27,734 nt of DNA, from IMG/VR virus record IMGVR_UViG_3300035661_000275, positions 1 to 27,734 of that record; one strand, written 5' to 3'. The stretch comes from a virus. The notes under the pieces were generated by a model. It made no database searches. It was not told where the DNA came from and saw only the letters and a list, made by a program, of their open reading frames with translations. Every line of letters starts with the position of its first letter. Within the stretch, counting starts at the first letter, position 1. The position numbers and the translations under genes are program-made. Of this stretch, positions 5,379 to 27,165 are shown in pieces.

Positions 5379-8300
5379 ATGGCAACTTCAATCTCATCCC
5401 TGCGCACCAATCGCGACGAGCCAAACCCATTCACTCGGCTCACCACGGATGGTCAGATCTCTCCGGCTGCCCAGTACGCCTTACTCCCGGAGGAGAGCCA
5501 GTTCACCAAGGGCCTGCGTACTACCGCTGCGGCCCTTACCGCCGGTTCGTACACCGACGAGGCGCTGAGCAAAGAAGCAGCCGGTGATCCCGCATACACC
5601 GACGCACTCAACCGCGCTACGCAGGTCCTACAAGACACGCGTATGTACGCACCGCGTGTGTCGTCACTGCGCGACGTCCATTCGCTCGGTGATGCCGGTG
5701 ACTACGCCGCTAGCGCCCTTGGCCAGGGTGCCATGAGCATGGTTCCGATGATCCCAACGCTCGCAGCGGCCGCGCTGACTCGTAATCTCGGACTGGTCGG
5801 CAAGGCCATTGGGCACGGCGTTGCAGCGGTGCCGATGTACGACATGGGGCGCGGCGCAGCTGCATTGGAACAGTATCAAGATCCGGAGCAGATGAAGGCC
5901 CCGGTTCAGGACCGCGAGACGGCTGCTCGGGCCAGAGGAGTTATTGACACTGCTTTTGCATCCGCTGTTCCTATCGGCATCGGTAAAACGCTTCTCCAAA
6001 AACCAGCTGGGTCGCTTTTGGGCCATATCGGTCGAGAAGCCGCCATCATGGGCGCCACAGGAGGAGCACAGCGGGTCGCAGACTACGGCACTGAGAAATA
6101 CATCGATCCGAACAAGCAGCTCGATCCATGGGACGTTGCCGATGCCGTAGCGGGCGGTGCTCTCACGGGCGGTGCCATGTCCGGTGTGTTTCGCGGCCCG
6201 GCCCACGCTGCAGCGGCCTTGTTGGGGCGCGGCAAGGACGCGATGCCAGACATGTCCGGGATCAAGAACCCGTTCCAGCGTGGTGACGACACTGGTGATG
6301 GTGCTGGTGCTGGCGGCGTCGCGGATATGCCTAACGAGGGCGGGGGTGGCGGCGCTGCCGCTGGCCCTGCTCCTGCTGACACGGTACTGGATAAGATGGC
6401 TGGCTTCGGCCAAGCAGTGAAGGAGCGCTTCGGTGATGACTTCGCGGCTGCCGGCGACAAGGCCAAGGACGTGACCGGCAAGGCCAAGGATATCGTCTCT
6501 GACACCCTTGACCGCATGACCGAGGCTGTGCGCACTGCTGAAAATCCGGGCGATTTTCTGAGTAAGGTTTTCGGTACCAGCCTCGAAGACGAAGCTTCGG
6601 CCGATGCGTTCGGGCAACCCAAACCTACGCTCAAGGGGGGTACGATTGAAGAGACCGAAGCCAACGTCAGGCACGATGACGAGCAGCGTGCTACGCGCGC
6701 CTCGCGTTATGCCGACGAGCTGCTGAATGACCCGGTCACTCCGGACGAGGTCAAACAGCGTGTGGTCGACATGGGCGGTGACTTCACCGACCCGGACAAC
6801 CAATCCTTCCTAGCCCGCACCCTCGTTACCCAGCGTGGTGGCGAGAAGGCCGGGAGTGCTGTGAAGGATCTGATCGACCTCGACAAGAGCGTATCCGCCA
6901 AGGGCTCGGAGATTGCGGGCGACGCCACTGACGGTGCACAAGACCGTGTCGTCAAGAAGAACCTGCAGAGCGCTACGCCAGCCGAGGAGGCTGCGTTCAG
7001 CAAGGTGGTGTTCGACGGCTTGACCGACGAGGCCAAGGCCAGCCCTGACGTGCGCCGCCATCTTTCGGACGTAACCAACGCCATGATGGCCTTCGCTGCC
7101 AAGACCGGTGACGTGACGGCCAAGGACCTACCGACGCTGACCAAGCTGTCGAACGCCATGTCCCTGTTCAAGGACCCGGACGCCATGGCCAAGACGCTGG
7201 TGGAGTACGCTAACCTGCCGCGTCCCGAGGATAGCTTCTTGTCGCGTATCAAGAGCATCACGAACGCCCAGCAGGACATGAAGCAGCCAAACAGCTTCCT
7301 CGTGTCCAGCCTGACGCCCGAGGCGCGCCGCCAGCTCACTGCTCCGCAGCTCCAACGCATCGCCCAGCTGGTAGACCAGTTCACCCTCATTGACTCGGCC
7401 GACTCGAAAAAGGGCACGGCGCTGGTGAACGGGCTGGCTAGCGCCTTCGGCTCGCCTGAGAGCGCCAAGGCCGTTCTGGATTACTACGCCAAGCAGAACA
7501 AGGCTGATCTGCGCTTCGACCCGAACGAAACCCTGCAGGAGGACGGCAGCAACCCGATCAACGTGCATGAGGCACCTGAGGCGTCATACCAGTTCAAGGA
7601 CGCGAAGTCCATGCGTCCGTTCAGCGTGCTGCGCGGCACGCAGCGCGGCGCCAAGGAGTCGTCGCGCGCAGCCGTCGATATGATGGGCAGTGGCTCTGTT
7701 GGCCCTGACGCCCGGGCCCACCCGGTACCGTACAGCGAGTACGTGGCCCGCACCGGGCGCGACCCCGGGGCTGAGGTCAGGCGTATTGCTAACGACATCA
7801 AGGAGCGTATCGCCGGGCACGAGAGCCGTACCGGCGAAGACCGCTCGCAGCAGATCAACGAGTTGAAGGGTGAACTGAGCGCCATGCGCGAGGCGTACAA
7901 GAAGGGTGGCGCTAAGGCGGCTCTCGACCTGTACGAGGTGCTGAAGGTCTCAGACGCCAAGGCATACGACGGCACGATCGCGTCGGATGAAGACGTCGCT
8001 GCCTACGGCAAGCTTACCAAGGACCCGTCGGCCTCGAAGACTCGTGTGACGTTCGAGCGCACTGATGGCTCCAAGCTCACCCTATCCGCCGAGTCCATGT
8101 GGAAGTCGCAGGGCGATAAGGAGGGTTCAGGCCGTGGTGAGGGCGCCAGCAGGCGTATGCGCCGTCTGTTCTCCGACGCCGTGGCCTCCGTGCTGGCGCG
8201 CGATGATGTTAAGGGATTGTCGACCAATCTCGACGACGTGGTGCTAGACCGCAAAACAGGGGCGAGGCTCAAGCCTGAGCGTGACGACGAGTACTACGAC

Positions 8301-11300
8301 ATGGTGAAATCCGCTCTGAAAGGGGCTGAGGGTTCCCTGAAAGAACTGGAAGGGAAACTGTCCGAAGTTGCCGACGAGTTCACCGAGCTGCTGGACGACG
8401 ACAGTGGGGTGGCTGAGTCACGCCGCGCGGAGATCAAACTTGCACTGCAACGAAACGTAGACCGCTTGCAGGAGCGTCTCAACGAACTCAAGAAGAACAG
8501 AGGCGGTGTGCCGGCGGAAACTGTTGTGAAGAAGAGGCTGCGCATGTACACCGAAGCAGCTGCGAACATCAGCGCTCTGGAGTTCGAGCACGAAGTAGAG
8601 CAGTCTGACATGAACCGCAAGGGAGTGACCGGAGAGGACGACGGCAAATCAATCGGCTCAAACGGCCTGCCGCGCACGCGTTCTAACGAGGAGCTAAACA
8701 ACACTAGCCCTCGTCGCTACGAAGAAGACACCGGTGCTGCCTTGGGGTCCACGCGTGCGCCGATGACAGGCGCTGGGGGTGGTAGTAAGAATGGCGACGC
8801 GCGACCGCTTTCACCCAAAGAGCTCACCACTCTGCACGACGTGGCGGTGAAGGGGAACTGGGATCGCATAGACACGCCCGAGAAGATGCAGAGTTACAAG
8901 GAACTGGCCAGCAGAGCGATAGAGGAGCTTGGACAGATTCCGGAGGACAGACTGACCCGTATGCAGAGAGGGCTGCTGGACAAGCTGCGCTGGGGTGCTT
9001 CGCCGCCCTCGGAGCCGCCCTCGGAGTCACCGAAGAAGGACGTGGCGTACAAAAACAAAGTCGAGCTCACTGGGGACAGTCCGTATCTTGGCAAGGATCA
9101 AGAGAAATCCGATCGTGCCGACAAGTTCATCGGGCGCGGTAGCGAGAAGTCCAGCACCAACCAGTACATGAAGGACTGGGGGGAGTTAGCCAACACCGGC
9201 AAGTACACGAAAGACGACACCGTATTCATAAGCGCTGAGGGTAACCGCAAAGGACGAATCGAGCCAGACTGGAATGAGATAAAGAAGGCCGTCGACGCTG
9301 GGGCTACGCTGATCACAGACGCGAAAGCAGATCGGGGGCGTCAGTACAACGTCGGTGAACGTGAAGTGGCTAAGTTCTTGTCCGACAACGGTTATGCTGA
9401 GTCGTCACCCGGTACTTGGGCGCCTGTGCAGCGCGAGGGGCGCGCCGAAACGCCAAAGACCGAACCGAACCCGGCCGCCTCGTCACGTGAGACCGCCAAG
9501 AAGATCGACGACACACGGGCGCTGAGCCCAGATGCGCTCACCGACCTGTACGACGTGGCAGTGAAGGACAACTGGGGCCGCCTCGACACTCCGGGTAAGG
9601 TGCTGCGCTTCACTGATATGGCTGTCAAGGCCTTTGAGCAGCTCAAGAAGATCCCAGCGCTGGATCTCACTGACACGCAAAGCCAACTGCGCTTCAGGCT
9701 GGAAGAACTGCTTGACCCGAAAGGCTCCTTCGACTGGGGTAGCATGTGGGACGGGCTCGAACCGACGGATGCACAGCGTGCGCGGCTGGAGGAGCTGATC
9801 CGCCCAAAAGCTGAGCCGGGCAGCGCCCGGCAATCCGCGATGAACCCCAATAGCGGGGAACCGGGGAAGATTGACAAACAAGCGATCATCGATGAGATCG
9901 CCCGCATTCGCGGCAAGGACGTTAAGGTAGCGTTTGCCAAGTTCGCTGATATCGGTGCGTCTGGCGAATTCTCCATGAGTCCCGACAAGACGAAGCGGCT
10001 GATCAAGATCGCGGTCGATTCGTTGAACCCGATGTCCGTGGCGTGGCACGAGTCGCTACACGACTTCATGGCCGTGCTGGGTGGCTCTAAGGCCGAACGC
10101 AAGCTGAAGGCCGACCTGCTTGCCGCTTCCGAGGCACCGCAAGTCATGTCCAAGATGCGGGAGCTGCTGAAAGACCATCCCGAAGCGCTCATGCAGATCG
10201 AGAAAGACCGCGAGGAGCGGCTGGCCTACATGTACCAGTTCTGGGCCGAAGGTGCGCTGAAACTGGGCCCGACCGGGACGAACATCTTCTCGCGCATAGT
10301 GACGTTCTTCCGCGAGATGTTGGGAGTGCTGAGCCAAGACCAGAAGATCGATCGGCTGCTCACGGCGCTGCACGGTGGCAAGTTTTCGGAGCCCAGCCTC
10401 GTTGGAGCTGTGCTCGAAGACCTGAAGGCCGAGACGTTGCCCGACCGTATACGCAGGGTGTCAGGTCCGCTTGGCGATACCGCCGAGGCCCTGTTCACAG
10501 CCACTACGGACCGTTTGCGCAACACCAACGTCGAGGCGCTGACCGAGCTGGCTGACATGTTCCATCGCGAACCGGGCCGTGAAGCCCCGGGCAAGCTGCC
10601 ATTCATGCAGCGCCGCGCACAGCAGACCGGTAAACGCCTGAACCAGCTGCAGGATATCTTGGGTGATACGTCGGCTGAGGACCGCCGCCGCGCGCTGGAG
10701 AATATGCAGGCTATGAAACCGCCCTCCAGCCCGCTGGAGATGAGGCTGGCTGCATATCTCAAGGACATACACGACTATATGGTCGAGAACGGCGTAAAGC
10801 GCTTCGACCACAGTACCAAAAAGTGGGAAGATCTGGGCTACGTCAAGAACTACTTCCCGCGTGTCTGGGACAAGGGGACCATCCGCAACAATGAGGCGGA
10901 GTTCGTCAAGCTGCTGGAGCAGTACGTCGGTAAGGAACAGGCACGGGAAACGTTCAACGCGCTGGTGAACGGTGACGGTTCGATCGAGCTGGCCGAAAAC
11001 GAACACTCGCTGGGCTTCACCCCTTGGAACCCATCGGTGCTGGACCGCCGGTTTACCTTCATCGACCCCAGCAACGCGGGCGATTTCGCCAAATACCAGT
11101 CCAAGGACTTGGTAGACGTCATGACCACATACGCCCAGCGCGCGGTGCATCGTGCTGAGTACGCCAACGACTTCGGCAACGACGGAGAAGTGATCACCTC
11201 GAAGCTCCTCAAAGCCCAGAAGCAAGGCGCGACGCAGGACGAACTCGACATGGCGCGCAAGGCGACCATGGCTATGGAGGGTACGCTGGGCTACAACTTC

Positions 11301-12344
11301 AACCCGCACCTCAAGGAGGTTATGAGCGGTCTCATGGCGTACGAGAACATCGTGCTGCTTCCGCTTAGCCTGTTCTCGAACCTGATCGACCCGCTAGGCA
11401 TAGCCCTACGCTCGAACGACATGAAAGAGGCGTGGACCGCGTTCAAGTACGGCATAAAGGGCCTCGTCGATCAGGTACGTGGTGCGGGCCCTGACGCCCA
11501 GACTGAGATGGCCAGAACGCTGGGGCTCATCGGCGACCAGCTCGTACTAGATTCCATGGGGCAGATGTACAACTCGATGTACATGAGCAAATTCCTGAAG
11601 AACCTCAACACGAAGTTCTTCCGCTACAACGGCATGGAGAGGTGGAATCAGAACATGCGGGTGGCCGCAATGGTGGCTGCGCAGCGATTTATCCTCGCAA
11701 ATCTGGGCCACGAACGGTACCTATCGGAGCTTGGGATCAAGGATTCTGACGTTTTTCAGCTCGCGGACGGAAGAATAGCCCTCACAAAGGACCAATTACT
11801 ACAGTCTGGAGCCAAAAAATCGGAGGTATCAGCCATCGAAAAGCGGATTCAGGCGGCGGTTTTCAAGTGGGTTGACGGCGCCGTCCTCCGCCCAAACGCG
11901 GCCCATCGGCCGATCTGGGGGAGCGATCCGCGATATCAGTTGATCTTCCACTTGAAGCAGTACACCTACAGTTTCCAGAACACGATCCTGCGCCGCGTCA
12001 GCGAAGAGCTGCGGCACGGGAACGTTGTGCCGGCGTGGATTTTGATGTCGTACGTGCCGTTCATGTTCGCCAGCGATACCGTCAAGGGATTGGTTACTGG
12101 AACGCTCCACTCCTCTGCAGACCTATATTCCATTGCAAGTCAATCACTTGCGAGATCTGGCATCTTGGGGACAGGTGTGTTCGGCGAGGACGCTTGGGGT
12201 GATCTGAAGCGCGGCAAGCTGCCGGGCACTACGTTCCTTGGCCCCACGTTCGACCACCTGACGACCCTACTATCAGGCCTCAGCGGGCATGCGAGCATGG
12301 GCCAAGTCATAAACCGCTCAGTGCCGCTTGCCAAGTACGTTTGA
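5379..12344 (+). CDS. Giant polyvalent-type virion protein with HExxH metallopeptidase domain
   Basis: This 2321-residue protein begins one base after the previous stop. The N-terminal 280 residues contain Gly/Ala-rich hydrophobic helices, followed by Gly-rich linkers and long charged helical stretches. Two related modules of about 65 residues (1140-1204 and 1378-1446) flank a compact alpha/beta-looking domain (about 1245-1352). Residues 1557-1561 are HESLH, a zinc-peptidase HExxH motif, and 'EERLAYMYQFW' about 52 residues later offers a third metal ligand (E1612 or E1613). This pattern matches the metallopeptidase of phage polyvalent proteins. The C-terminal part holds 'YVKNYFPRVW' and hydrophobic stretches near 1985-2010, again as in those proteins. 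Such proteins are thought to enter the cell with phage DNA. I see no lysozyme or transglycosylase motif. Substrate and ejection are inferred. Confidence 0.85.
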   Translation: MATSISSLRTNRDEPNPFTRLTTDGQISPAAQYALLPEESQFTKGLRTTAAALTAGSYTDEALSKEAAGDPAYTDALNRATQVLQDTRMYAPRVSSLRDVHSLGDAGDYAASALGQGAMSMVPMIPTLAAAALTRNLGLVGKAIGHGVAAVPMYDMGRGAAALEQYQDPEQMKAPVQDRETAARARGVIDTAFASAVPIGIGKTLLQKPAGSLLGHIGREAAIMGATGGAQRVADYGTEKYIDPNKQLDPWDVADAVAGGALTGGAMSGVFRGPAHAAAALLGRGKDAMPDMSGIKNPFQRGDDTGDGAGAGGVADMPNEGGGGGAAAGPAPADTVLDKMAGFGQAVKERFGDDFAAAGDKAKDVTGKAKDIVSDTLDRMTEAVRTAENPGDFLSKVFGTSLEDEASADAFGQPKPTLKGGTIEETEANVRHDDEQRATRASRYADELLNDPVTPDEVKQRVVDMGGDFTDPDNQSFLARTLVTQRGGEKAGSAVKDLIDLDKSVSAKGSEIAGDATDGAQDRVVKKNLQSATPAEEAAFSKVVFDGLTDEAKASPDVRRHLSDVTNAMMAFAAKTGDVTAKDLPTLTKLSNAMSLFKDPDAMAKTLVEYANLPRPEDSFLSRIKSITNAQQDMKQPNSFLVSSLTPEARRQLTAPQLQRIAQLVDQFTLIDSADSKKGTALVNGLASAFGSPESAKAVLDYYAKQNKADLRFDPNETLQEDGSNPINVHEAPEASYQFKDAKSMRPFSVLRGTQRGAKESSRAAVDMMGSGSVGPDARAHPVPYSEYVARTGRDPGAEVRRIANDIKERIAGHESRTGEDRSQQINELKGELSAMREAYKKGGAKAALDLYEVLKVSDAKAYDGTIASDEDVAAYGKLTKDPSASKTRVTFERTDGSKLTLSAESMWKSQGDKEGSGRGEGASRRMRRLFSDAVASVLARDDVKGLSTNLDDVVLDRKTGARLKPERDDEYYDMVKSALKGAEGSLKELEGKLSEVADEFTELLDDDSGVAESRRAEIKLALQRNVDRLQERLNELKKNRGGVPAETVVKKRLRMYTEAAANISALEFEHEVEQSDMNRKGVTGEDDGKSIGSNGLPRTRSNEELNNTSPRRYEEDTGAALGSTRAPMTGAGGGSKNGDARPLSPKELTTLHDVAVKGNWDRIDTPEKMQSYKELASRAIEELGQIPEDRLTRMQRGLLDKLRWGASPPSEPPSESPKKDVAYKNKVELTGDSPYLGKDQEKSDRADKFIGRGSEKSSTNQYMKDWGELANTGKYTKDDTVFISAEGNRKGRIEPDWNEIKKAVDAGATLITDAKADRGRQYNVGEREVAKFLSDNGYAESSPGTWAPVQREGRAETPKTEPNPAASSRETAKKIDDTRALSPDALTDLYDVAVKDNWGRLDTPGKVLRFTDMAVKAFEQLKKIPALDLTDTQSQLRFRLEELLDPKGSFDWGSMWDGLEPTDAQRARLEELIRPKAEPGSARQSAMNPNSGEPGKIDKQAIIDEIARIRGKDVKVAFAKFADIGASGEFSMSPDKTKRLIKIAVDSLNPMSVAWHESLHDFMAVLGGSKAERKLKADLLAASEAPQVMSKMRELLKDHPEALMQIEKDREERLAYMYQFWAEGALKLGPTGTNIFSRIVTFFREMLGVLSQDQKIDRLLTALHGGKFSEPSLVGAVLEDLKAETLPDRIRRVSGPLGDTAEALFTATTDRLRNTNVEALTELADMFHREPGREAPGKLPFMQRRAQQTGKRLNQLQDILGDTSAEDRRRALENMQAMKPPSSPLEMRLAAYLKDIHDYMVENGVKRFDHSTKKWEDLGYVKNYFPRVWDKGTIRNNEAEFVKLLEQYVGKEQARETFNALVNGDGSIELAENEHSLGFTPWNPSVLDRRFTFIDPSNAGDFAKYQSKDLVDVMTTYAQRAVHRAEYANDFGNDGEVITSKLLKAQKQGATQDELDMARKATMAMEGTLGYNFNPHLKEVMSGLMAYENIVLLPLSLFSNLIDPLGIALRSNDMKEAWTAFKYGIKGLVDQVRGAGPDAQTEMARTLGLIGDQLVLDSMGQMYNSMYMSKFLKNLNTKFFRYNGMERWNQNMRVAAMVAAQRFILANLGHERYLSELGIKDSDVFQLADGRIALTKDQLLQSGAKKSEVSAIEKRIQAAVFKWVDGAVLRPNAAHRPIWGSDPRYQLIFHLKQYTYSFQNTILRRVSEELRHGNVVPAWILMSYVPFMFASDTVKGLVTGTLHSSADLYSIASQSLARSGILGTGVFGEDAWGDLKRGKLPGTTFLGPTFDHLTTLLSGLSGHASMGQVINRSVPLAKYV
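8796..9716 (+). repeat. Duplicated ~65-codon module in the giant gene
   Basis: Residues 1140-1204 (8796-8990) and 1378-1446 (9510-9716) of the giant protein are related. By hand alignment, 26 of the first 49 residues are identical, including the shared cores LSP, DVAVK, NW and DTP. The two copies flank a separate domain at about 9111-9434, giving a repeat-domain-repeat layout. Confidence 0.8.
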
Positions 12345-12357
12345 CCGAAACCAAGCA

Positions 12358-12383
12358 CGAAGCCCCGATTCGTTGGGGCTTCG
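12358..12383 (+). terminator. Hairpin ending the structural gene block
   Basis: A perfect nine-base-pair stem (CGAAGCCCC at 12358-12366, GGGGCTTCG at 12375-12383) encloses an eight-base loop. It starts 14 bases after the stop of the giant gene. The bases after it (TCACTTCGT) are not a strong T-run, so it may be a weak or Rho-assisted terminator. Confidence 0.6.
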
Positions 12384-12397
12384 TCACTTCGTAAGCG

Positions 12398-12431
12398 TAA
12401 GGAGATCGTGATGCCCGGTGAGATGCTCTAA
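12398..12431 (+). other. Orphan Shine-Dalgarno with six-codon open frame
   Basis: AAGGAG lies six bases before an ATG at 12411. That ATG opens a frame of only six sense codons (M-P-G-E-M-L) ending at TAA 12429-12431, exactly where the AT-rich stretch begins. It may be a leader peptide or the leftover start of a lost gene. Expression is not shown. Confidence 0.4.
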
Positions 12432-12444
12432 GTACTTATCACTA

Positions 12445-12482
12445 TTACATTTTTTCTATTCCTTACGAACTTACATTTTTTC
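12445..12482 (+). repeat. Two copies of TTACATTTTTTC, 26 bases apart
   Basis: The exact 12-mer TTACATTTTTTC occurs at 12445-12456 and 12471-12482. The spacing of 26 bases start to start and the location in non-coding AT-rich DNA make a binding-site role (origin, promoter or operator) possible, but this is inference. Confidence 0.7.
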
Positions 12483-12503
12483 AGATAAATAAAACAGTAG
12501 GTA

Positions 12504-12530
12504 TAGATAGTATATGTAGATAGTTGATAG
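12504..12530 (+). repeat. TAGATAG direct repeats
   Basis: TAGATAG occurs at 12504-12510 and 12517-12523 (period 13), followed directly by the variant TTGATAG at 12524-12530. It adjoins the 12-mer repeats in the same AT-rich stretch. Confidence 0.6.
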
Positions 12531-12604
12531 CAGTGATGGTGGTTTCTATAAAGGTTACCCCGCCTCGTTACGAAAGTTTCGTCAGGACCCATCCGTCGCC
12601 GGCC

Positions 12605-12634
12605 TTGCACCACCAGCCCGTGATGTGGTATATT
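12605..12634 (+). promoter_or_regulatory. Possible sigma70-like promoter for the reductase
   Basis: TATATT (12629-12634) matches five of six bases of a -10 box. TTGCAC (12605-12610), 18 bases upstream, is only a weak -35 box. A start near 12641 would place the hairpin at 12641-12657 at the very 5' end of the transcript. The AT-rich stretch upstream could also act as an UP element. Confidence 0.3.
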
Positions 12635-12640
12635 TTCCGC

Positions 12641-12661
12641 AGCCCCCCAGAGGGGCTTTTT
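12641..12661 (+). terminator. Rho-independent terminator-like hairpin before the reductase
   Basis: AGCCCC (12641-12646) pairs with GGGGCT (12652-12657) around a five-base loop, followed by TTTTT-like sequence (12658-12661 after the paired T). It lies only 22 bases before the reductase ATG. It may stop read-through from the left, or act as a 5' hairpin or attenuator if the promoter just upstream is real. Confidence 0.55.
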
Positions 12662-12683
12662 CAGCCTTCGAGGAAAACCCGCC

Positions 12684-14597
12684 ATGGACATCGCCGCCAA
12701 AGCCGACCTGCCTGTCTCTCTCCCCACCCCCCTTCAGTCGTTCATCCACAAGTCCCGCTACGCCCGCTGGCTTGACGCCGAACAGCGCCGCGAGGACTGG
12801 CCCGAGACCGTTGACCGCTACGTCAACTTCTTCGCCAAACGCTTCCCCGAGCTGTATCCTGCCTCTCGCGTGAAGGCCGCCATCCAGTCGCTGCGCTGCA
12901 TGCCCTCCATGCGCGCCCTGATGACCGCTGGCCCTGCCCTCGAGAAGGACGAGATGGCTGGGTATAACTGCTCCTACATCGCCGTGGACAACGTCCGCGC
13001 CTTCGATGAAATCCTGTACATCCTGATGTGCGGTACGGGCGTCGGCTTCAGTGTCGAGCGCCAGAACATCAACCAGCTGCCCGAAGTGGCTGAGACTTTT
13101 CACCCCAGCACCACGGTCATTACGGTCAAGGACAGCAAGATCGGCTGGGCCAGCGCCTTCCGCGAGCTGATCAGTCTGCTGTACGCTGGACAGATCCCAC
13201 AGTGGGACGTCAGCAAAGTGCGCCCTGCCGGCGCGAAGCTGAAGACCTTCGGCGGCCGCGCTTCTGGCCCCAAGCCGCTGGTCGACCTGTTCAAGTTCTC
13301 CGTAGCTCTGTTCAAGGGTGCTGCAGGCCGCAAGCTGACCTCCGTCGAGTGCCATGACCTCGTCTGCAAGATCGCCGACATCGTCGTGGTGGGCGGTGTG
13401 CGCCGCTCGGCCCTGATCTCCCTGTCCAACCTGTCTGACGACCGCATGCGCGTGGCGAAGTCGGGCAAGTGGTGGGAAACTGAACCCCAGCGCGCGCTGG
13501 CCAACAACTCTGCCGCCTACACGGAGCGCCCCGACATGGAGATCTTCCTGAAGGAGTGGCAGGCCCTTATCGAGTCGAAGTCCGGGGAGCGCGGCATCTT
13601 CAATCGCGTGGCGGCGAAAAAGAAGGCGGCTGAGTCTGGCCGTCGCAATCCGGACTTCGATTTCGGTACCAACCCCTGCGGAGAGATCCTTCTGCGCTCC
13701 GCCGGTCTGTGCAACCTGACTGAGGTGGTTATCCGCGCTGGCGACACGCTCGAGGACCTGATGGAGAAGGTCGAGGTGGCCACCATCATGGGCACCTTCC
13801 AGTCGACCCTCAGCAAGTTCCGCTACGTGCGCAGCGTGTGGCAGAAGAACCAAGAGGAGGAACGCCTGCTTGGTGTCTCCATGACTGGCATCATGGACCA
13901 CGAGGTGCTGTCCAAGGTCTCCGATGAAGCCGCCAGCTGGCTGGCGGTCCTGCGTGTCCATGCCGTCAAGACGAACGCCGAATGGGCTGCCAAGCTGGGC
14001 ATCAATCAGTCCGTGGCGATCACCACTGTGAAACCGTCCGGCACGGTCTCCCAGCTCGTGGATTCTGCGTCCGGCATCCACCCCCGATACAGCAAGCACT
14101 ACATCCGCACCGTGCGCGCCGACAAGAAGGATCCTCTGGCACAGTTCATGCGTGCGGAAGGCTTCCCTGTCGAGGACTGTGTGCTGAAGGGCGACACAAC
14201 TGATGTGTTCAGCTTCCCCGTGGAAGGCCCGGAGCACGCCGTGTTCCGCAATGACATGACGGCCGTCGAGCAGCTGGACCACTACCTGATGTTCAAGCAG
14301 CACTGGTGTGAGCACAACCCGTCGATCACCGTCTACGTGCGTGATCACGAGTGGCTGGCCGTCGGTGATTGGGTGTACCGCAACTTCGACGACGTCGGTG
14401 GCGTGTCGTTCCTGCCCCACAGCGACCACACCTACCAGCAGGCACCATACCAAGAGTGCTCGAAGGAGGAGTACGACGCGCTGGTTGCGAGGATGCCAGA
14501 CTTCGACTGGGCGGGCCTGCAGCGGTTCGAGAGGGACGATTCGACGACCAACCAGCAAACGCTGGCCTGCTCGGCTGGTGCCTGCGACGTCCTGTGA
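12684..14597 (+). CDS. Adenosylcobalamin-dependent (class II) ribonucleoside-triphosphate reductase
   Basis: This 637-residue enzyme would reduce ribonucleotides to deoxyribonucleotides using coenzyme B12. The active-site motif NPCGE is present (N330, C332, E334). C96 (in 'GYNCSYIAV') and C343 (11 residues after C332) fit the redox pair of the monomeric Lactobacillus leichmannii-type enzyme. The C-terminal C-x4-C pair (C629 and C634, 'CSAGAC') fits the thioredoxin-accepting tail. 'KPSGT' is also present. The monomeric class usually has about 700 residues, so this is a slightly compact form. The ATG at 12684 has AGGA nine bases upstream (12671-12674). It stands alone on the + strand between the late block and the convergent leftward genes, with hairpins on both sides, so it is probably its own transcription unit. 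Confidence 0.95.
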   Translation: MDIAAKADLPVSLPTPLQSFIHKSRYARWLDAEQRREDWPETVDRYVNFFAKRFPELYPASRVKAAIQSLRCMPSMRALMTAGPALEKDEMAGYNCSYIAVDNVRAFDEILYILMCGTGVGFSVERQNINQLPEVAETFHPSTTVITVKDSKIGWASAFRELISLLYAGQIPQWDVSKVRPAGAKLKTFGGRASGPKPLVDLFKFSVALFKGAAGRKLTSVECHDLVCKIADIVVVGGVRRSALISLSNLSDDRMRVAKSGKWWETEPQRALANNSAAYTERPDMEIFLKEWQALIESKSGERGIFNRVAAKKKAAESGRRNPDFDFGTNPCGEILLRSAGLCNLTEVVIRAGDTLEDLMEKVEVATIMGTFQSTLSKFRYVRSVWQKNQEEERLLGVSMTGIMDHEVLSKVSDEAASWLAVLRVHAVKTNAEWAAKLGINQSVAITTVKPSGTVSQLVDSASGIHPRYSKHYIRTVRADKKDPLAQFMRAEGFPVEDCVLKGDTTDVFSFPVEGPEHAVFRNDMTAVEQLDHYLMFKQHWCEHNPSITVYVRDHEWLAVGDWVYRNFDDVGGVSFLPHSDHTYQQAPYQECSKEEYDALVARMPDFDWAGLQRFERDDSTTNQQTLACSAGACDVL

Positions 14598-14672
14598 CGG
14601 GGCGGCGGGCGAGGGCTAAGCAACTCTGAAATAGTTTGGCATCCCTCAGCGAAGAGGGAAAAAGAGAGAGAG

Positions 14673-14690
14673 AGAGCCCTACGGGGCTCT
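14673..14690. terminator. Bidirectional terminator between convergent genes
   Basis: AGAGCCC (14673-14679) and GGGCTCT (14684-14690) form a seven-base-pair stem around TACG. A UACG loop closed by C-G is a UNCG-type, very stable tetraloop. TTCTACTT follows on +. On - the hairpin is followed by a CT-run and TTTTT (complement of 14657-14672). It lies between the reductase and the convergent small gene. Confidence 0.75.
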
Positions 14691-14692
14691 TT

Positions 14693-14926
14693 CTACTTCC
14701 GAAGCGACTTCTTGGTCGCGTTCTTCCAGTAGTGACGACCGTCCTTGGACATGCACCACGGGTCTGAGACCTCGCGGTAGTCGATAGGGATCGGGTCGTC
14801 AGGTCCAGCTTTGAGCCGGTCCCTGAACTTGGCGCGCAGGCGCTTGTGCCACAGCCGCTTGTCCTCAGCTTCTGAGGTCGCAGTGGTGTTCCCGAAGATA
14901 GGGGTCTTACGGCGGCTGCGGCTCAT
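14693..14926 (-). CDS. Small basic phage protein (MSRSRRKTPIFG type)
   Basis: This 77-residue protein starts at ATG 14926, one base after the ThyX stop (TGATATGA), which suggests translational coupling. The frame is open further upstream into thyX, but that start would overlap thyX by about 60 bases and is less likely. The N-terminus 'MSRSRRKTPIFGNTT', an Arg/Lys/Trp-rich helix (DKRLWHKRLRAKFRDRLK) and 'VSDPWCMSKDGRHYW' near the end match a small hypothetical protein that I have seen in many unrelated phages. Its function is unknown; its charge would suit nucleic-acid binding, which is only inference. It is the last gene of the leftward block and ends just before the shared terminator. Confidence 0.75.
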   Translation of the reverse strand: MSRSRRKTPIFGNTTATSEAEDKRLWHKRLRAKFRDRLKAGPDDPIPIDYREVSDPWCMSKDGRHYWKNATKKSLRK

Positions 14927-14927
14927 A

Positions 14928-15710
14928 TCACACCTTGCTGTGGGCGAACTTCCATTCACCGTTATGGAAGCGCTCCATGTCGCCATAGATCGTCGGGAAC
15001 TTGGCCTTCAGCTGCTGAGCAACGTCGCCAATGATCACGCGGATCTCTTCTTCGGCATGCATGGAAGTGCGCATCTCGATGATGTGGCGCCACGCACGGT
15101 GGTTGCCAGTCATCACGATGTGGTTGGCCTGCCCGTTGCCGAGGATGCGGCGGAAAGCACTCGTGAGCCGTTTCTTCAGTCCGAAGTCAGTCATGGTCTC
15201 AATACCCGTGACCCTGACCAGCTCAGCGAGGTTCTCTTCCATCTGTGCATTCGCACGTTGGAAGATGGCCACAGCTTCGGGGTACGCGGTCAACTCGTCG
15301 GGCATGTACATGTCGACTTCGTCACTACGCACGTAGCGCCCGCTGGTCTGGCTGAACGCCGTACCAGCGCGGTGGCGCACCAGCTCGTGCGTAACCACAC
15401 GCGACACGTTCGTCAAGAAGAAGGTGACAGACGAGTGCTCCAGCACGCTACCGTGCCCGTTGGCGACGATCCCCTGCTGGATATAGTCGTAGTTGTTGCG
15501 ACCACCTACCTTGGTCAGGTTCTTGTTCATCGAGGTGTCGAATGACATGTAACAGGACTTGCCAGCGAACTCGGTGAGTACGTCGGCGTCGTTGTCACTG
15601 TCCGTGGTCCAGCCGTCCACACCAAGGTGCAGAAGGGCATGGTCTATGGCCGCATAGTCTACCTTCGTCTCGGCGATGAGGAAGGCCTTGGGGACGATGA
15701 GTTTACCCAT
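14928..15710 (-). CDS. thyX: FAD-dependent thymidylate synthase ThyX
   Basis: This 260-residue enzyme would make dTMP from dUMP using methylene-tetrahydrofolate, with NADPH reducing its FAD. The ThyX signature RHR (residues 112-114) is followed by 'AGTAFSQTSGRY', giving the RHR-x(5)-S form with S120, S123 and R125 downstream. 'HGSVLEHSSVTF' (86-97) and 'NHRAWRHIIEMR' supply further conserved His and Arg residues of the family. Length is usual for ThyX. The ATG at 15710 has GGAG nine bases upstream and overlaps the end of the preceding small gene by eight bases. Together with the dNMP kinase, the MazG-like enzyme and the reductase on the other strand it forms a phage dNTP supply set. Confidence 0.96.
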   Translation of the reverse strand: MGKLIVPKAFLIAETKVDYAAIDHALLHLGVDGWTTDSDNDADVLTEFAGKSCYMSFDTSMNKNLTKVGGRNNYDYIQQGIVANGHGSVLEHSSVTFFLTNVSRVVTHELVRHRAGTAFSQTSGRYVRSDEVDMYMPDELTAYPEAVAIFQRANAQMEENLAELVRVTGIETMTDFGLKKRLTSAFRRILGNGQANHIVMTGNHRAWRHIIEMRTSMHAEEEIRVIIGDVAQQLKAKFPTIYGDMERFHNGEWKFAHSKV

Positions 15711-17081: not shown

Positions 17082-17234
17082 TTACTTTGCATCGCGCTTA
17101 CTCTCTCGATAGCGAAGTCTTTCGTGATCGATGACCCCTTTCACGAGGTAGTACCCCATGACGGTAGTGGCGAGAACTCGATACGTCGCGGTAGTGACCT
17201 TGGCTGCGCTCACAGCGACTCTGACAACTTGCAT
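17082..17234 (-). CDS. Small hydrophobic protein, possible membrane protein
   Basis: This 50-residue protein starts at ATG 17234 with GGAG seven bases upstream. It overlaps the end of the preceding nuclease gene by 25 bases. Residues 3-32 are mostly Ala, Val, Thr and Leu with few charges and could form one membrane helix; the C-terminus is strongly charged ('DHERLRYRESKRDAK'), so it would probably face the cytoplasm. I recognise no family. A role at the membrane is inference only. Confidence 0.55.
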   Translation of the reverse strand: MQVVRVAVSAAKVTTATYRVLATTVMGYYLVKGVIDHERLRYRESKRDAK

Positions 17235-19997: not shown

Positions 19998-20366
19998 TTA
20001 CACGGAACGGATGTTCAGCTTGCGCTGAGTGAAAGGCACGACGCCGGGAATGGCGCCTTTGTGATCGAACAGCTCACGGCAGCCAGTGACTGACGGACGA
20101 CGTTCGAGCAAGTGGTAGTACTTGTTCTTGTGGATATACGCGTAGAACGCATCCCAGTCCTCGACCGACGGTTTGACAGACGTCGAGATAGACACTGTGG
20201 CCTTCGAACCAGTCGACTTGGTGATGTTTTGTCGATCCATCAATTCGATCAGTTCGTTTTCCACAAGGTCAATCTCTTGAGCTTTCGCCTTGAGCAGCTC
20301 TTCGAGCTGACGTTTCTCTTCTCGCAGTGCGTGAAGAGCATCGATTTTAGCACCAACGGTACTCAT
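19998..20366 (-). CDS. Phage protein with N-terminal coiled coil
   Basis: This 122-residue protein has an N-terminal coiled coil (about 5-45, 'LREEKRQLEELLKAKAQEIDLVENELIELM') and a C-terminal globular part with 'VEDWDAFYAYIHKNKYYHLLERRPS' and 'IPGVVPFTQRKLNIRS'. I have seen this C-terminal pattern in hypothetical proteins of several phages, beside replication genes. GGAG lies ten bases before ATG 20366, inside a leader closely similar to the one at 25363 (see findings). The function is unknown. Confidence 0.78.
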   Translation of the reverse strand: MSTVGAKIDALHALREEKRQLEELLKAKAQEIDLVENELIELMDRQNITKSTGSKATVSISTSVKPSVEDWDAFYAYIHKNKYYHLLERRPSVTGCRELFDHKGAIPGVVPFTQRKLNIRSV

Positions 20367-20367
20367 C

Positions 20368-20375
20368 TGATATCA
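20368..20375 (-). promoter_or_regulatory. TGATATCA palindrome one base before a start codon
   Basis: This is the second copy of the leader TTGGRGTGATATCAKATG, here before the coiled-coil gene at 19998-20366. See 25365-25372. Confidence 0.4.
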
Positions 20376-20391
20376 CTCCAAAGGGTAAATT

Positions 20392-20646
20392 TCAGGTCTG
20401 CCAACATCGTGGACAGTTGACGAGCTTTGTGAACGCCCCGTTTCGTTCACGAATCTGACCCCGACCTTCGCAGACCGGACATACCTTGTTCTGCAGGCCC
20501 TCGTAAGCCTTCTTCACGGCGTCGAACTTTTCCGCGTCACCTCCTTCTCGATCGGGGTGGTACTTCATGGCAAGCCGCTTGTACGCGGCTCGGATCTCTT
20601 CGTCTGTAGCACTAGGTGCTACACCCAATGTGTCGTAGTGGCTCAT
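20392..20646 (-). CDS. Miniature DnaJ-like protein
   Basis: This 84-residue protein has a nearly complete J domain: '[33 protein letters not shown]' with the HPD tripeptide at 30-32, which stimulates DnaK. A single zinc-binding half follows: C56-x2-C59 ('CPVCEGRGQ') and C78-x2-C81 ('CPRCW'), instead of the four CxxCxGxG repeats of full DnaJ. There is no Gly/Phe linker and no substrate-binding C-terminal domain. It would recruit host DnaK to a phage target, perhaps a replication complex, as host DnaJ does for lambda; this is inference. ATG 20646 overlaps the stop of the gene before it (ATGA), so translation is probably coupled. Confidence 0.88.
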
Positions 20647-20981
20647 GCACGGATCTTCGCTGCGATGGCGTCCGAAAGAGCAGCCTTGACCTGCTGTGAA
20701 AGCGGGGTGACTGCCTTATCAATCTCGGCTTTGACTTGCTTCTGCAGTTCAGCGGCAATGGCCGACGGCGTGACCTTCATAGAGGTCTGCTTCTTTAGCT
20801 CAACGGCCACAAGGTCGCCTAGCACCGGACTGTTGGGTTTGAGGAGACGTAGTTTGGCGATCTCGCCAGCCACAATGCCGGAGAGCTGTTCACGCAGAAC
20901 GTGGCGAACTTGACCTTCGATCAAGCTTTTCACATGTTGACGGAACATCTCATCTTCTTCGATGATCAGGTTGACTTTCAT
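20643..20981 (-). CDS. Small helical hypothetical protein
   Basis: This 112-residue protein lies between the DNA polymerase and the DnaJ-like gene; its stop overlaps the DnaJ-like start. It is mostly helical, with an acidic N-terminus ('[15 protein letters not shown]') and an Ala/Lys-rich C-terminal helix ('[33 protein letters not shown]'). No family is recognised. Its place next to the polymerase and J protein suggests a replication accessory role, which is inference. Confidence 0.7.
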
Positions 20982-20998
20982 TTTGGGGCTCGGTTGCG

Positions 20999-22864
20999 TT
21001 ACTTGGAATAGCAGTAGTCAAAGCCACCTTCGGCCGAGAGTGGAAGTCCCGGTGCCCAGTCGGGTGCAGTTGACATGGTTTTGATCATGAAGTCGAGGGC
21101 CTTCTTGGCGTCCTTCTCCTTGGCGATGATTACGATCTCGTCATGCGTCATGGTCACGATTCGGTAGCCGGCATCGTGGATCTTCAGCATCTGCTCAGCG
21201 ATGATGATGCGCGCGAGAGCCTGCACCACGTTCTCGGTGAGTAGTCCGCCGTATAGCTTGGCTCGGCCAGAGCGTGTGAGGTATGTGGTCTCGGTCATCA
21301 CGAGGTCATCGCGCGTGACGTCGGCTGTACCATGCAGACCGAAGTACTGTAGAAATAGCCCGTTGGGCAGGCACAGGAAACCTTTGCCGGACTCGATCGG
21401 ACCTTCTTTGCTCTTGATCCCCAGCGTCATGTTGGTGATCATCTGGTCCATCTTCTTCCAGAAGGCCCTGATCTTCCAGTTCTTTTGGCGGTAGATGTTG
21501 ACGATGCGACGACACTCATCTTCGCTGATGTCCACTGGCGGTCCCATCGTGCCCTGCTTCAGCGTCTGCTGGAGCTTTTGCGGACCCATGCCGTAGCCCA
21601 GACCCAGCACACAGATCTTGCCAATGAAGCGTTGGTCCTTGGTAACATCTTCGACCGGGACGTTGTAGATCACTGAGGCCATCAACTTGTACACATCTTG
21701 CTTTGTAGCGAAGGCGTTGACGATGTCCATTTGCTGAGCCAGCCATGCAAGAACACGAGCCTCAATCTGCGCAGAGTCGGCGACCACGATTACGTAGCCC
21801 TTCGGCGCAAGGATCGAGCGGCGCAGTTCACCGCCGCGCTTCAAGTTCTGCAAGTTCATCTTGTTCCCACCAGACCAGCGGTGAGTATGGGCACCGCTGT
21901 AATTCAGCAGGATGGGCAGCTTCTTGCCGTCGCGCCCAGCTTCAAGGAAACGGTTCGCACGGGTCTCGCCGATGGTAGATTTCACCTTAAGACGAGCCTC
22001 GCACAGTGCGCGGACCTTATCATTGCCGCTTTTCATCAAGTCTTGAAAGGCTAGATCGGATTTGGCGAACGCATAGGTCAGTTTGCCGGTCGACGGGCTG
22101 ATTTTCTGCGGTAACTGTGCACCAGCAGCTTTGAGCAGTTGAGCGAACTTGTCATTCGACATCAGGTCTTCGACCTGAGCACCTGAATGCAGCAAAGCTG
22201 CAGTCTTGGCGCCGAGTTCCTTCTCCAGTTCAGTTTTGACGCGTGGAATGTCGACCTCCAGCACAGGATCGCAGAACATACGCATCGTGATGTCGATCAA
22301 CCGTAGTTCATTATCAGGCACGTATGGGTACATGTCCCAGAAAATCTTGTACGTGTCTTCCACATCGTCGACCGCGTAGCCGCCCAGCTTAGCCTCTTCG
22401 TCCTTCGTGAGCTGCATCTTGTTCTTGGTGTTGGCCAACGCTTCGCGCTTTACCTTGCCACCATGACCGAGGGCCTTAGCCACTGTGTCCAAATCGTGCT
22501 TCGTGGCGTGACCACGTGTTGCACGGCTCATGGACAGAGTGTCGACGTAGAAGGCGGGCTTGTGTCCGTAGACCTCCGATGTGACGAATCCGTCAAACGC
22601 CGTGTTGTGGCAGACCATCGCGGTCTTCGACCAGTCGATTTCCTTCAGCGCGAGCGCGATGTTGCGTCCGGTGTACCAGAGCGTCTTGCCGTTGCCCTTT
22701 TTGATCGCTACTCCATGCACGTGAAAGCGGTCATCGCGCACGTACTCTGAGGTGTTCAGCTTTCCTGCCAATGTGTAGTCATCGCTGTAGAAGGTCTCGT
22801 AGTCAAGCGTGACAATGTCATACGTGACGCCATTGACTTCCAGCTTTCCGTCTTCCATGGACAT
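20999..22864 (-). CDS. Family A DNA polymerase with 3'-5' exonuclease domain
   Basis: I chose ATG 22864 (621 residues), with AAGGA seven bases upstream. The N-terminal third is a DEDDy exonuclease: D21 and E23 in 'LDYETFY', D91 in 'HNTAFD', and Y163 with D167 in 'YAVDD'. Palm and finger motifs follow: motif A 'DSAQIEAR' (D363), O-helix R412...K416...G421...Y424-G in 'RFIGKICVLGLGYGMG', and motif C 'HDE' (H574, D575, E576). There is no 5'-3' exonuclease domain, as expected of a phage replicative Pol A. The residue matching E. coli Pol I F762 is Leu here (L420). The enzyme would copy the phage genome with the nearby helicase and nucleases. Confidence 0.97.
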   Translation of the reverse strand: MSMEDGKLEVNGVTYDIVTLDYETFYSDDYTLAGKLNTSEYVRDDRFHVHGVAIKKGNGKTLWYTGRNIALALKEIDWSKTAMVCHNTAFDGFVTSEVYGHKPAFYVDTLSMSRATRGHATKHDLDTVAKALGHGGKVKREALANTKNKMQLTKDEEAKLGGYAVDDVEDTYKIFWDMYPYVPDNELRLIDITMRMFCDPVLEVDIPRVKTELEKELGAKTAALLHSGAQVEDLMSNDKFAQLLKAAGAQLPQKISPSTGKLTYAFAKSDLAFQDLMKSGNDKVRALCEARLKVKSTIGETRANRFLEAGRDGKKLPILLNYSGAHTHRWSGGNKMNLQNLKRGGELRRSILAPKGYVIVVADSAQIEARVLAWLAQQMDIVNAFATKQDVYKLMASVIYNVPVEDVTKDQRFIGKICVLGLGYGMGPQKLQQTLKQGTMGPPVDISEDECRRIVNIYRQKNWKIRAFWKKMDQMITNMTLGIKSKEGPIESGKGFLCLPNGLFLQYFGLHGTADVTRDDLVMTETTYLTRSGRAKLYGGLLTENVVQALARIIIAEQMLKIHDAGYRIVTMTHDEIVIIAKEKDAKKALDFMIKTMSTAPDWAPGLPLSAEGGFDYCYSK

Positions 22865-22874
22865 GGGTTGTTCC

Positions 22875-23195
22875 TTAGAGCTTAACCTTTGCTGTGTAGA
22901 AGGCACTGCGCCAGATGCGCACTTGCGCGATGTGCGCAGCGCCAGAAGGGACGCCGCGACCCACTGCTGACATCCAGCCGAGGCCGGAGTAGTAGATGAT
23001 CTGGCTACCCCACATATTGTGGTGCTCAGGGTCGTGCAGGCCCTGCTTACGCATCCACGCGGCGACAGCAGAGCCGTCGAACTCGTAGTGCGTCTTCAGA
23101 AACTGGCGCAGGAGTTGTTGGTATTGCTTCTCCCATGCGATCTGGTACGTGAGGTTGAGCGGCATGTTTTGCGGGCGGACGGCGAAGTTGCTCAT
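22875..23195 (-). CDS. Hypothetical protein between polymerase and helicase
   Basis: This 106-residue protein starts at ATG 23195 with AAGGAG six bases upstream. It is rich in Trp, Tyr and His ('HDPEHHNMWGSQIIYYSGLGWMSAVG'). I see no catalytic motif and recognise no family. The strong ribosome site and tight fit between two replication genes make it a real gene; the function is unknown. Confidence 0.75.
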   Translation of the reverse strand: MSNFAVRPQNMPLNLTYQIAWEKQYQQLLRQFLKTHYEFDGSAVAAWMRKQGLHDPEHHNMWGSQIIYYSGLGWMSAVGRGVPSGAAHIAQVRIWRSAFYTAKVKL

Positions 23196-23232
23196 TGGAT
23201 TCTCCTTGGGGCTCGTTGGTGGCAGTTGCAAA

Positions 23233-24624
23233 TCAGGGCGTTCGATCGTCGAACATTTCTTGAAGGAAGGTAAGCATATTGGTCTGTCGGACGTTCTTGT
23301 CGGTCAGCTTCTGGAACACTTTGTCCTCGACAGTGCCCGGGGCGAGCACGACAATGGTCTCGGTTTTTTGCGTCTGGCCGGCACGGTAGATGCGGCGGTT
23401 GCCTTGCAGCCAGTGTTCGAGGTTGTACGTCGGACTCGCCCAGATCGTGGCTGTGCCCTTGGTAAGCGTGAGGCCATGAGCTGCGCTCTGCGGATGAGCT
23501 AGCAGGACGCGGTAAAACCCAGCTTGGTACCGGTCAACTGCTTCTTTGCGCTGCTTGTCCGACGTACTGCCATCGATGACTGCGTACGTCAGGCCTTTCT
23601 TCTTGAACTCGGCAATCAGGTGATCTCTCTGGTGCTGCCAGTTGAAGAACACCACGCTGTGATCGCGCTGGTCAGCCAGATCGGCCACCAGCTCGTAGCG
23701 CGCTGTATCGATGCTGACGTAGTCCTCGCCCTCTAGCCCTTCAGAATATGAAGCGCCACTGGCGATCTGCAGCAGCTTAGTCATCACGCCCGCTGCGTTG
23801 AGCGCGCTGATCACCTTGCCTCCCGATAGCGCTGCGATAGCGTTCTTCTCGAACTGCTGGTACAGCTTGGCTTGCTTCGGTGTCATGTGGTACGGCACTG
23901 AGTACTCGTGGTTCGCAGGAATGTCGATGCACTCCTCGAATTTGTGGCGCACTACCATGTCTTGGATCAGGCCGCCTACAGCGATCTCGGCACCGGGCTT
24001 GTCGATCCACTTCAACATGTTCGGTTGCGGACCGACCTGCTCAGGAGTTTGTGTCGAGTTGCGAAACTGATAGAACGACTTGCCTAGCCGCTGGCCATCA
24101 TCGAGGATGAATATTTGGTGCCAGAGATCTGTGATCGTGTTGCTGTTCGGAGTACCAGTGAGCCCGTAGCGATGCTTGAAGTGCTTCTTGATTTTGTTCA
24201 TCGCCTTTGAGCGACCACTGGTGTGGTGCTTGAATGCAGACAACTCGTCGATGATCAAGGTATCGAAGCGCTTGAAGAACTTCGCGTCCTGCTTTGCGAG
24301 CCAGTTCACAGCGTCAGTGTTCGTCACATAAACGTCGGCCGGCACGTTGAGCGCAGTTTCACGCTTCTCTGCTGTGGCTACAGACACCCTGATGTGCGGC
24401 GCGAACTTCTTGAAGTCGTCTTCCCATGCACTGCGCAGGAGAGACTTCGGAGCAATCACCAAGGCCGCCCCACCACCGGCTGCACGACGAGCCGCAAACA
24501 GCTCGATCTGTACCCGGGTCTTGCCGGTTCCGGGGTCTGAAGCATCGAGTACACGCGGACGTGTTCGCATGAACTCTATGGAAGCGGCTTGATGCTTGAA
24601 GAGAGGCGGTGACTTTTGGGACAT
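23233..24624 (-). CDS. SNF2-type superfamily 2 helicase
   Basis: I chose ATG 24624 (463 residues), with AAAGGAG seven bases upstream. Both RecA-like halves are present. Walker A is 'DPGTGKT' (30-36, K35), motif II is D126-E127-L-S ('IIDELSAFK'), motif III 'GLTGTP' ends at 159, and motif VI 'QGNRRIYRAGQ' lies near the C-terminus. The order and the RxxRAGQ-like motif VI match phage SNF2-like helicases. It would move along or remodel DNA, as the likely replicative or recombination helicase; no separate DnaB-like helicase is seen in the window. It starts one base after the stop of the nuclease gene. Confidence 0.93.
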   Translation of the reverse strand: MSQKSPPLFKHQAASIEFMRTRPRVLDASDPGTGKTRVQIELFAARRAAGGGAALVIAPKSLLRSAWEDDFKKFAPHIRVSVATAEKRETALNVPADVYVTNTDAVNWLAKQDAKFFKRFDTLIIDELSAFKHHTSGRSKAMNKIKKHFKHRYGLTGTPNSNTITDLWHQIFILDDGQRLGKSFYQFRNSTQTPEQVGPQPNMLKWIDKPGAEIAVGGLIQDMVVRHKFEECIDIPANHEYSVPYHMTPKQAKLYQQFEKNAIAALSGGKVISALNAAGVMTKLLQIASGASYSEGLEGEDYVSIDTARYELVADLADQRDHSVVFFNWQHQRDHLIAEFKKKGLTYAVIDGSTSDKQRKEAVDRYQAGFYRVLLAHPQSAAHGLTLTKGTATIWASPTYNLEHWLQGNRRIYRAGQTQKTETIVVLAPGTVEDKVFQKLTDKNVRQTNMLTFLQEMFDDRTP

Positions 24625-24625
24625 G

Positions 24626-25336: not shown

Positions 25337-25364
25337 ACGTGGAACTCCTCGTTTGGGGGACATA

Positions 25365-25372
25365 TGATATCA
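25365..25372 (-). promoter_or_regulatory. TGATATCA palindrome one base before a start codon
   Basis: The palindrome TGATATCA lies one base upstream of ATG 25363 and is preceded by TTGGGG. The same palindrome, spacing and TTGGAG occur before ATG 20366 (20368-20375). It may be an operator or simply a shared extended ribosome site. Confidence 0.4.
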
Positions 25373-26645: not shown

Positions 26646-26647
26646 GA

Positions 26648-27160: not shown

Positions 27161-27165
27161 GGCTG

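Follow-up and report, generated by a model that had tools for sequence, protein, structure and literature searches.

A repeat-bearing AT-rich island as a candidate late replication origin in a bacterial virus

Introduction

Between the virion genes and a ribonucleotide reductase gene of a bacterial virus lies a non-coding stretch in which the G+C content falls sharply. This raises the question of what such an island does for the phage. The sequence analysed here, referred to as the window, is an IMG/VR record of 27,734 nt in which end repeats are absent. Its virion genes run on the + strand up to position 12344, the last being a giant gene for a protein of 2321 aa (5379..12344, +). A 339-bp non-coding region follows, and then a class II ribonucleotide reductase (RNR) gene (12684..14597, +; phrog_367, 1.6e-186). 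Downstream of the RNR gene, replication and nucleotide genes lie on the - strand, with ThyX, a nucleotide kinase, a family A DNA polymerase, an SNF2-type helicase and a PD-(D/E)XK nuclease. In the phage collection searched, the nearest relatives of the C-terminal third of the giant protein (34.6%) and of the DNA polymerase (41.7%) are the Pseudomonas phages KPP25/R18, and those of a 651-aa virion protein are Pseudomonas phages such as Epa33 and LKA5 (~38%). The window also encodes a small DnaJ-domain protein near the polymerase gene (20392-20646, 6.4e-18). A DUF2201 metallopeptidase/VWA-like protein with a MoxR-like AAA ATPase ~2 kb away (window 27166-27729; stretch L155 of a near-identical phage, 7127-8305 and 10341-11360) forms a pair that is, in our view, unusual for a phage.

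The original prediction offered three guesses for the island: a replication origin, a regulatory hub or a foreign insert. The origin is the best supported, on grounds that differ from those of that prediction: a repeat array found at the same place in L003, a relative, and in KPP25 recurs in another AT island of related genomes, which carry a primase-helicase gene. The regulatory hub survives as a rather unlikely rival, and the foreign insert is unsupported because both of these relatives keep the island in place together with its motif. From sequence comparison, we consider it reasonably likely that the island is one of two paired iteron-type origins served by the phage's own NrS-1/P4-like candidate initiator.

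Results

The prediction had described 12431-12530 as very AT-rich, and its count of 25 G+C in 100 bases is exact. The lowest value for any 100-bp stretch of the window is 24, at 12429 (mean 58.4, sd 5.3), and the least stable 100 bp by nearest-neighbour energy also starts at 12429 (z 6.4); in composition and stability, a candidate AT-rich unwinding element therefore adjoins the repeats described below. Both repeat families named earlier are present as well. TTACATTTTTTC occurs exactly twice, at 12445-12456 and 12471-12482, 26 bases apart, and TAGATAG forms a pair at 12504 and 12517 with a period of 13, plus one extra copy at 890. A 12-base exact direct repeat arises in 6/2000 dinucleotide shuffles of the 100 bp and in 8/2000 of 12345-12683; two TAGATAG copies arise in 4/2000 shuffles of the 100 bp. 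The 12-mer has no further site in the window when up to 2 mismatches are allowed and is absent at up to 1 mismatch from five of five related contigs, among which G002 stops short of the island; in the sequence covered, it is not a word common through the genome. The conserved element is a different repeat of ~9 bp, which the original prediction overlooked, and the 12-mer is not kept in relatives. GC skew, proposed there as a check, takes no turn at the islands and does not discriminate between the guesses.

The AT islands of the window's clade and its relatives carry tandem ~9-bp repeats in both orientations. In the window phage their consensus is TCGTAAGGA; the repeated word is TCGTAAG(GA) in the window clade, TCGTAACA in KPP25 and CCTAGCA in others. 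L003, whose giant protein is 60% identical to that of the window, carries an island with a GC content of 22% in the same location; the 3' end of the giant gene marks the place of the island in both L003 and KPP25. The L003 island contains TCGTAAG eight times, in tandem runs 8-12 bp apart, with four copies forward, two reversed and two forward, and these are 8 of the 10 copies in its 33.7-kb contig (G001). Nothing in L003 matches RNR with an E of up to 1e-3, and a different gene lies 3' of its island; RNR is thus not the constant neighbour, as the gene 3' of the island differs among the window, L003 and KPP25 and the island stays. An extra cluster of the iteron motif (score 51.0) lies inside the giant gene of L003 at 10249-10499 (= L086 19767); it is near an insertion in the L003 protein relative to that of the window and holds one of the two non-island TCGTAAG copies.

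The whole element in the window (12345..12683), non-coding by the ORF table and situated between the giant virion gene and RNR, is a candidate late or second origin; its position is like that in L003 and KPP25, not G010, and it is the top iteron cluster of the window. Right 3' of the giant gene, a G+C-rich hairpin with perfect 10-bp arms (12357..12384; RNA fold -22 kcal/mol, z -3.66) is probably the terminator of the late operon, although a terminator scan found it terminator-like on the - strand only. The three blocks of L003 follow in degenerate form. Block A (12387..12404, +) consists of the abutting iterons TTCGTAAG and CGTAAGGA, which score 9.5 and 7.5 with a motif matrix (PWM) trained on the eight sites of the L003 island alone and which fall within the alignment of the islands. 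Downstream of it, GCTCTAAGTACTT (12425..12437, +) is common to the initiator-side island of the phage contig L170, and the first TTACATTTTTTC copy (12445..12456, +) is not conserved as such. Block B (12459..12482, -) comprises the reversed iterons TCCTTACGAA and CTTAC, which run into the second TTACATTTTTTC; it is the best single matrix site of the window (18.4) and a conserved block in the multi-island alignment. The A-rich core (12483..12550, 29% GC), which includes the TAGATAG pair, is the candidate DNA unwinding element, and its position, not its sequence, is kept among the aligned islands. Block C (12564..12588) contains the degenerate iterons CTCGTTACGAAA and TTTCGTCAGGAC in opposite orientation (11.8 and 12.8); L003 has TTTCGTAAGGATCGTAAGGACC at the matching place. 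Just before RNR, a short hairpin followed by a T run (12641..12657, +; fold -10.8 kcal/mol, z -1.5) was not reported by the terminator scan and is a weak candidate for a terminator or attenuator.

As DNA, 12385-12590 folds in an ordinary manner (z +0.95; 164/200 shuffles fold at least as well). An RNR riboswitch or other known RNA was rejected, since Rfam gave no match across the whole window at gathering scores, nor in 12300-12700 at E up to 1. The regions upstream of five RNR relatives, taken from the best 80 of 412, look by eye either coding or unrelated.

The L003 matrix ranks the island first in the window, with a score of 60.1 vs 28.6 for the next 250 bp. In L156, a stretch from a near-identical phage, it ranks a second island first (56.9 vs 22.3), and the best clusters in the other such stretches reach 28.3 (L155) and 25.6 (L157). 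The window and L156 values were reached in none of 200 whole-sequence shuffles and none of 1000 local shuffles. Local alignment of the window island with the late island of L003 gives a score of 50 (0/500 shuffles). No exact 7-mer repeat in the window exceeds the controls (log10 p -5.5), and the best 7-mer is a hairpin arm. In the same test, a value of -8.0 or less was obtained for 8 of 11 family loci (all but the window, L156 and L170) and for 1 of 33 controls (LKA5); the 11 loci are not independent, with KPP25, G010 and the L171/L172 pair contributing two each. Because the exact 7-mer count fails to single out the window, its case rests on the relatives. Among viral contigs, exact tandem TCGTAAGGATCGTAAGGA occurs in two, one being the relative itself and the other a contig of 6972 bases whose surroundings look unrelated. 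With up to 2 mismatches allowed, the paired motif CGTAAGNNCGTAAG is scattered over 8 of 12 additional contigs, in numbers similar to those of a reversed control.

The second island of the window phage is known only from a contig (G005) that is 99.2% identical to window 20040-27734 and holds a further AT-rich place (26% GC, L156 2503). This island 2, which scores highest in its stretch as a motif cluster, is flanked on one side by two XRE genes and on the other by a 72-aa ORF, ribbon-helix-helix (RHH)-like by eye and without a Pfam match; beyond the XRE genes is a DUF5906 protein of ~790 aa, the candidate initiator. No third AT island is present in the stretches of near-identical phages covered, where coverage is incomplete, there being no overlap between G005 at its right end and G002 at its left. 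The strongest single result is the alignment of the late island of the window with the initiator-side island of L170 over ~140 bp, with a score of 75 against a shuffle maximum of 30 (0/500). Alignments with the initiator-side islands of G005 and L169 each score 34 (0/500).

A search of viral contigs with the initiator gave six loci (L167-L172), in each of which the lowest-GC place lies ~0.35-0.75 kb before the matched gene; the dip is modest in L171 and L172 (z -3.1 and -2.9). These represent about four phages, because L167/L168 agree with G005 and L171/L172 with each other. In the phage of L169 (G023), all seven TCGTAAG copies fall within 371 bp, four in the non-coding island and three within the beginning of the adjacent XRE gene. 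The islands of L171 and L172 carry CCTAGCA.

KPP25 and G010 came instead from searches with virion or polymerase genes, and in both genomes two islands of shared build, one early and one late, are present. In KPP25 (complete, 64.1 kb), one island (58.26-58.54 kb) immediately follows the giant gene and the other is at 26.39-26.82 kb; together they hold 13 of 13 TCGTAACA copies, and they align with each other with a score of 147 (0/500 shuffles). In G010 (62 kb), 11 of 12 CCTAGCAA copies are in two islands (13 of 19 for the shorter CTAGCAA), which align with a score of 156 (0/500); its late island precedes the giant gene by ~1.8 kb instead of following it. The early island is ~12 kb from the initiator gene in KPP25 and ~4.5 kb in G010. 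The window island has little or no similarity to those of KPP25 (scores reached by 17 and 2 of 500 shuffles), G010 (149 and 165 of 500) or L171 (192 of 500).

Several further places were seen along the way. About three longer, near-identical tandem units, GGCACTAAGGCTCCAG...GTTACGAAATTTT, are found at L088 1290-1510 (KPP25 ~26.6-26.85 kb), and KPP25 island A, used as a query, hits five places in the KPP25 record. An 18% GC island in the Aeromonas phage phiA008 (L173 2812-3226), accompanied by a 26% initiator homologue, lacks the known iteron words and may hold another repeat word. Two loci with a related polymerase (L107 800-1400 and L121 800-1400) have AT islands of a different kind, with ACTTTACA or ATCTAA repeats; a search of the L107/L121 stretches covered gave no homologue of the initiator.

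The helicase region of the candidate initiator matches DUF5906 (PF19263, 8e-20), placing it among DUF5906/SF3 proteins, and the protein matches the PDB chains 6k9e/6k9c/6lrb 'Primase' (phmmer, 5.3e-31). It shares 42.3% identity with its KPP25 counterpart and, over the helicase part, 27.2% with the NrS-1 primase. The N-terminal part has no meaningful Pfam match at E up to 10; LDLDG, CHIF and PLDI, picked out by eye in the initiator alignment, may be motifs of a putative AEP PrimPol. The full-length model is too poor for a fold search (pLDDT 41.2). The C-terminal 117 aa gave a winged-helix-like model at pLDDT 81.6, the best of five that differ from one another (the other four, 69.1 down to 41.8). 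Its best VIA match is NrS-1 630-718, with a Z of 5.0 (rmsd 3.6 over 84 residues) that, by the tool's own note, possibly reflects just a common arrangement. Foldseek gave no match at E under 0.001; the fold of P4 alpha itself is absent from the structural matches listed, which decides nothing.

The initiators of G005, L169 and L170 (82-90% identical) accompany TCGTAAG; those of L171 and G010, 57-61% identical to the former, accompany CCTAGCA; and that of KPP25, 41-42% identical to those of G005, L169, L170 and L171, accompanies TCGTAACA. A link between initiator branch and iteron word is suggestive only, because the initiators of L171 and G010, despite having a word in common, are just 60% identical, hardly closer to each other than to the others.

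Discussion

An AT-rich island, a motif shared with relatives and a two-island pattern are found here, and the genomes with such islands carry the candidate initiator gene. From these, we infer that initiator binding, strand opening and the start of replication may take place at the island. We propose the following: the phage initiator, a NrS-1-type primase-helicase of ~790 aa with a putative winged-helix-like C-terminal domain, would bind the TCGTAAGGA repeats, set in runs of alternating orientation, and its binding would separate the strands of the A-rich core, which lies between block B and block C. The same protein would then assemble at this point into an SF3 helicase ring and begin DNA synthesis. 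Of the two islands, the sister near the initiator gene would act as the early origin and fire first; the island of the window, at the end of the late operon, would be the late or second origin and fire second, as oriR does relative to oriL in SPP1. Several results weigh against this reading: the absence of a GC-skew turn at the islands, the lack of an exact 7-mer signal in the window, the poor alignment of its island with those of KPP25, G010 and L171, the place of the late island of G010, the distance of the early islands of KPP25 and G010 from the initiator gene, the regulator genes beside island 2 in some phages, an N-terminal part with no meaningful Pfam match, the weak winged-helix match and its divergent models, the phiA008 island that lacks these repeats, and the motif cluster within the giant gene of L003.

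The repeats could instead be operators for the XRE or the 72-aa RHH-like regulator, controlling the early genes at island 2 and RNR or the late-end genes at island 1. XRE genes do adjoin island 2 in G005 (HTH_3, 2.4e-13), L170 and L169, the RHH-like ORF adjoins it in G005, L170 and G010, and hairpins stand on both sides of island 1. However, neither regulator is constant, each being matched in three of the six phages compared (G005, L169, L170, L171, KPP25 and G010; E up to 1e-3), and no HTH family was found in the two ORFs flanking island B of KPP25. The gene downstream of island 1 is not conserved either, a scan of 12200-15000 found no sigma-70-like promoter, and an operator has no need of the most AT-rich spot in the genome; an operator role is therefore one to which we assign a low, if appreciable, likelihood. 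RHH proteins are known to bind centromere iterons, so the RHH-like ORF that neighbours island 2 in half of the six phages compared would also suit a partition, packaging or recombination site, in which an RHH-like protein sits on iterons at a centromere-like or maturation site. That protein has no Pfam match itself and is unmatched near the islands of L169, L171 and KPP25, no partition ATPase was recognised beside island 2, where the adjacent 311-aa ORF lacks a Pfam or PHROG match, and the terminase gene is ~3.3 kb from island 2 (L156 5933); such a site seems improbable to us.

An ordinary AT-rich spacer or foreign insert with repeats arising by chance would fit the few and degenerate exact repeats of the window itself. 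Its place, low GC and motif recur in L003 and KPP25, however, and the motif and alignment scores, obtained with the L003 matrix and the islands of L003, L170, L169 and G005, stand above every shuffle. The shuffle tests largely contradict this explanation, to which we give very little credence.

Returning to the paired-origin reading, a wider and more tentative proposal, doubtful as it stands, is that the window phage, the KPP25 group, G010 and the L171 lineage all use two iteron origins, served by an NrS-1-like primase-polymerase-helicase that is self-contained and would recognise the iterons through its winged helix. Branches would have exchanged the iteron word along with the initiator, and a late origin occupied by initiator would act as a roadblock that turns theta replication towards concatemers. 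In titles and the beginnings of abstracts on KPP25, related phages and iteron or two-origin phages, with few subscription papers among them, such islands are undescribed, and the words 'origin' and 'AT-rich' are absent from the main text of the CRPAP1904 paper. A two-origin layout is known; a variant with a NrS-1-type initiator would probably be new. If true, it would suggest that an early/late origin pair arose more than once, given the different, single-protein initiator, and NrS-1-type enzymes would gain a natural double-stranded target. The islands provide exact sites in KPP25, an isolated phage.

Among known systems, NrS-1 resembles the window phage in its homologous helicase region (phmmer 5.3e-31) and, judging from the model, may also have a similarly folded C-terminal domain (Z 5.0); both genomes have helicase and RecB or PD-(D/E)XK nuclease genes. 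According to excerpts of two studies, the NrS-1 primase-polymerase starts at 8-nt TTTGGTTA sites, not clustered iterons (PMC7102993, PMC8718748). The former, in the portion available, gives two TTTGGTTA copies in NrS-1, one per strand, and leaves open how these start sites become accessible. The NrS-1 record (L175, AB746912) contains a single exact TTTGGTTA, at 17198 on the - strand. Its lowest-GC place is not a repeat-bearing AT island.

P4 has two separate repeat regions, ori1 and crr, and its alpha protein binds the repeats, unwinds the DNA and primes synthesis. P4 is thus like the arrangement proposed here in using one protein for repeats, unwinding and priming and in having two repeat regions; alpha, unlike the candidate here, has a bacterial-type primase domain. 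The available part of one paper assigns alpha an origin-binding winged helix and describes in ORF904 of pRN1 and its relatives a primase, an SF3 helicase and a C-terminal winged helix (PMC4234260), the same arrangement as here, where the primase part and the winged helix are putative. Its authors propose a stem-loop origin, not iterons, for pRN1 in that same portion (PMC4234260); we rejected an origin of this type for the island, which is without a large stable stem-loop (z +0.95). In the accessible sections of another report, the helicases SaPI Rep and SCCmec Cch2 read short iterons through a C-terminal domain (PMC7581432); as described there, they differ in having a single origin downstream of the gene, in belonging to a satellite or cassette and in relying on a separate primase.

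The closest parallel in layout is the Bacillus phage SPP1, for which we draw on excerpts of two papers (PMC6316719, PMC3485210). SPP1 replication, as these present it, relies on the host replisome together with the initiator gp38, the loader gp39 and gp40, a DnaB-type helicase. The window phage differs in that its candidate initiator is a single DUF5906/SF3 primase-helicase, accompanied by a phage family A polymerase, and no protein named gp38, gp39 or gp40 was among the window or G005 proteins scanned. SPP1 oriL lies inside gene 38, and island 2 is intergenic. The same excerpts describe two like origins with repeats and an AT-rich unwinding element: oriL, located at the initiator gene in the early region, and oriR, in the late region. 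As here, the AT islands are the strongest composition bias of the genome. The late origin of SPP1 is a segment between transcription signals, with accessory genes, and its authors propose that initiator at oriR stalls forks and thus brings about the switch to concatemers. Like oriR, the island of the window is bracketed, by the hairpin of the late operon on one side and a weaker hairpin before RNR on the other.
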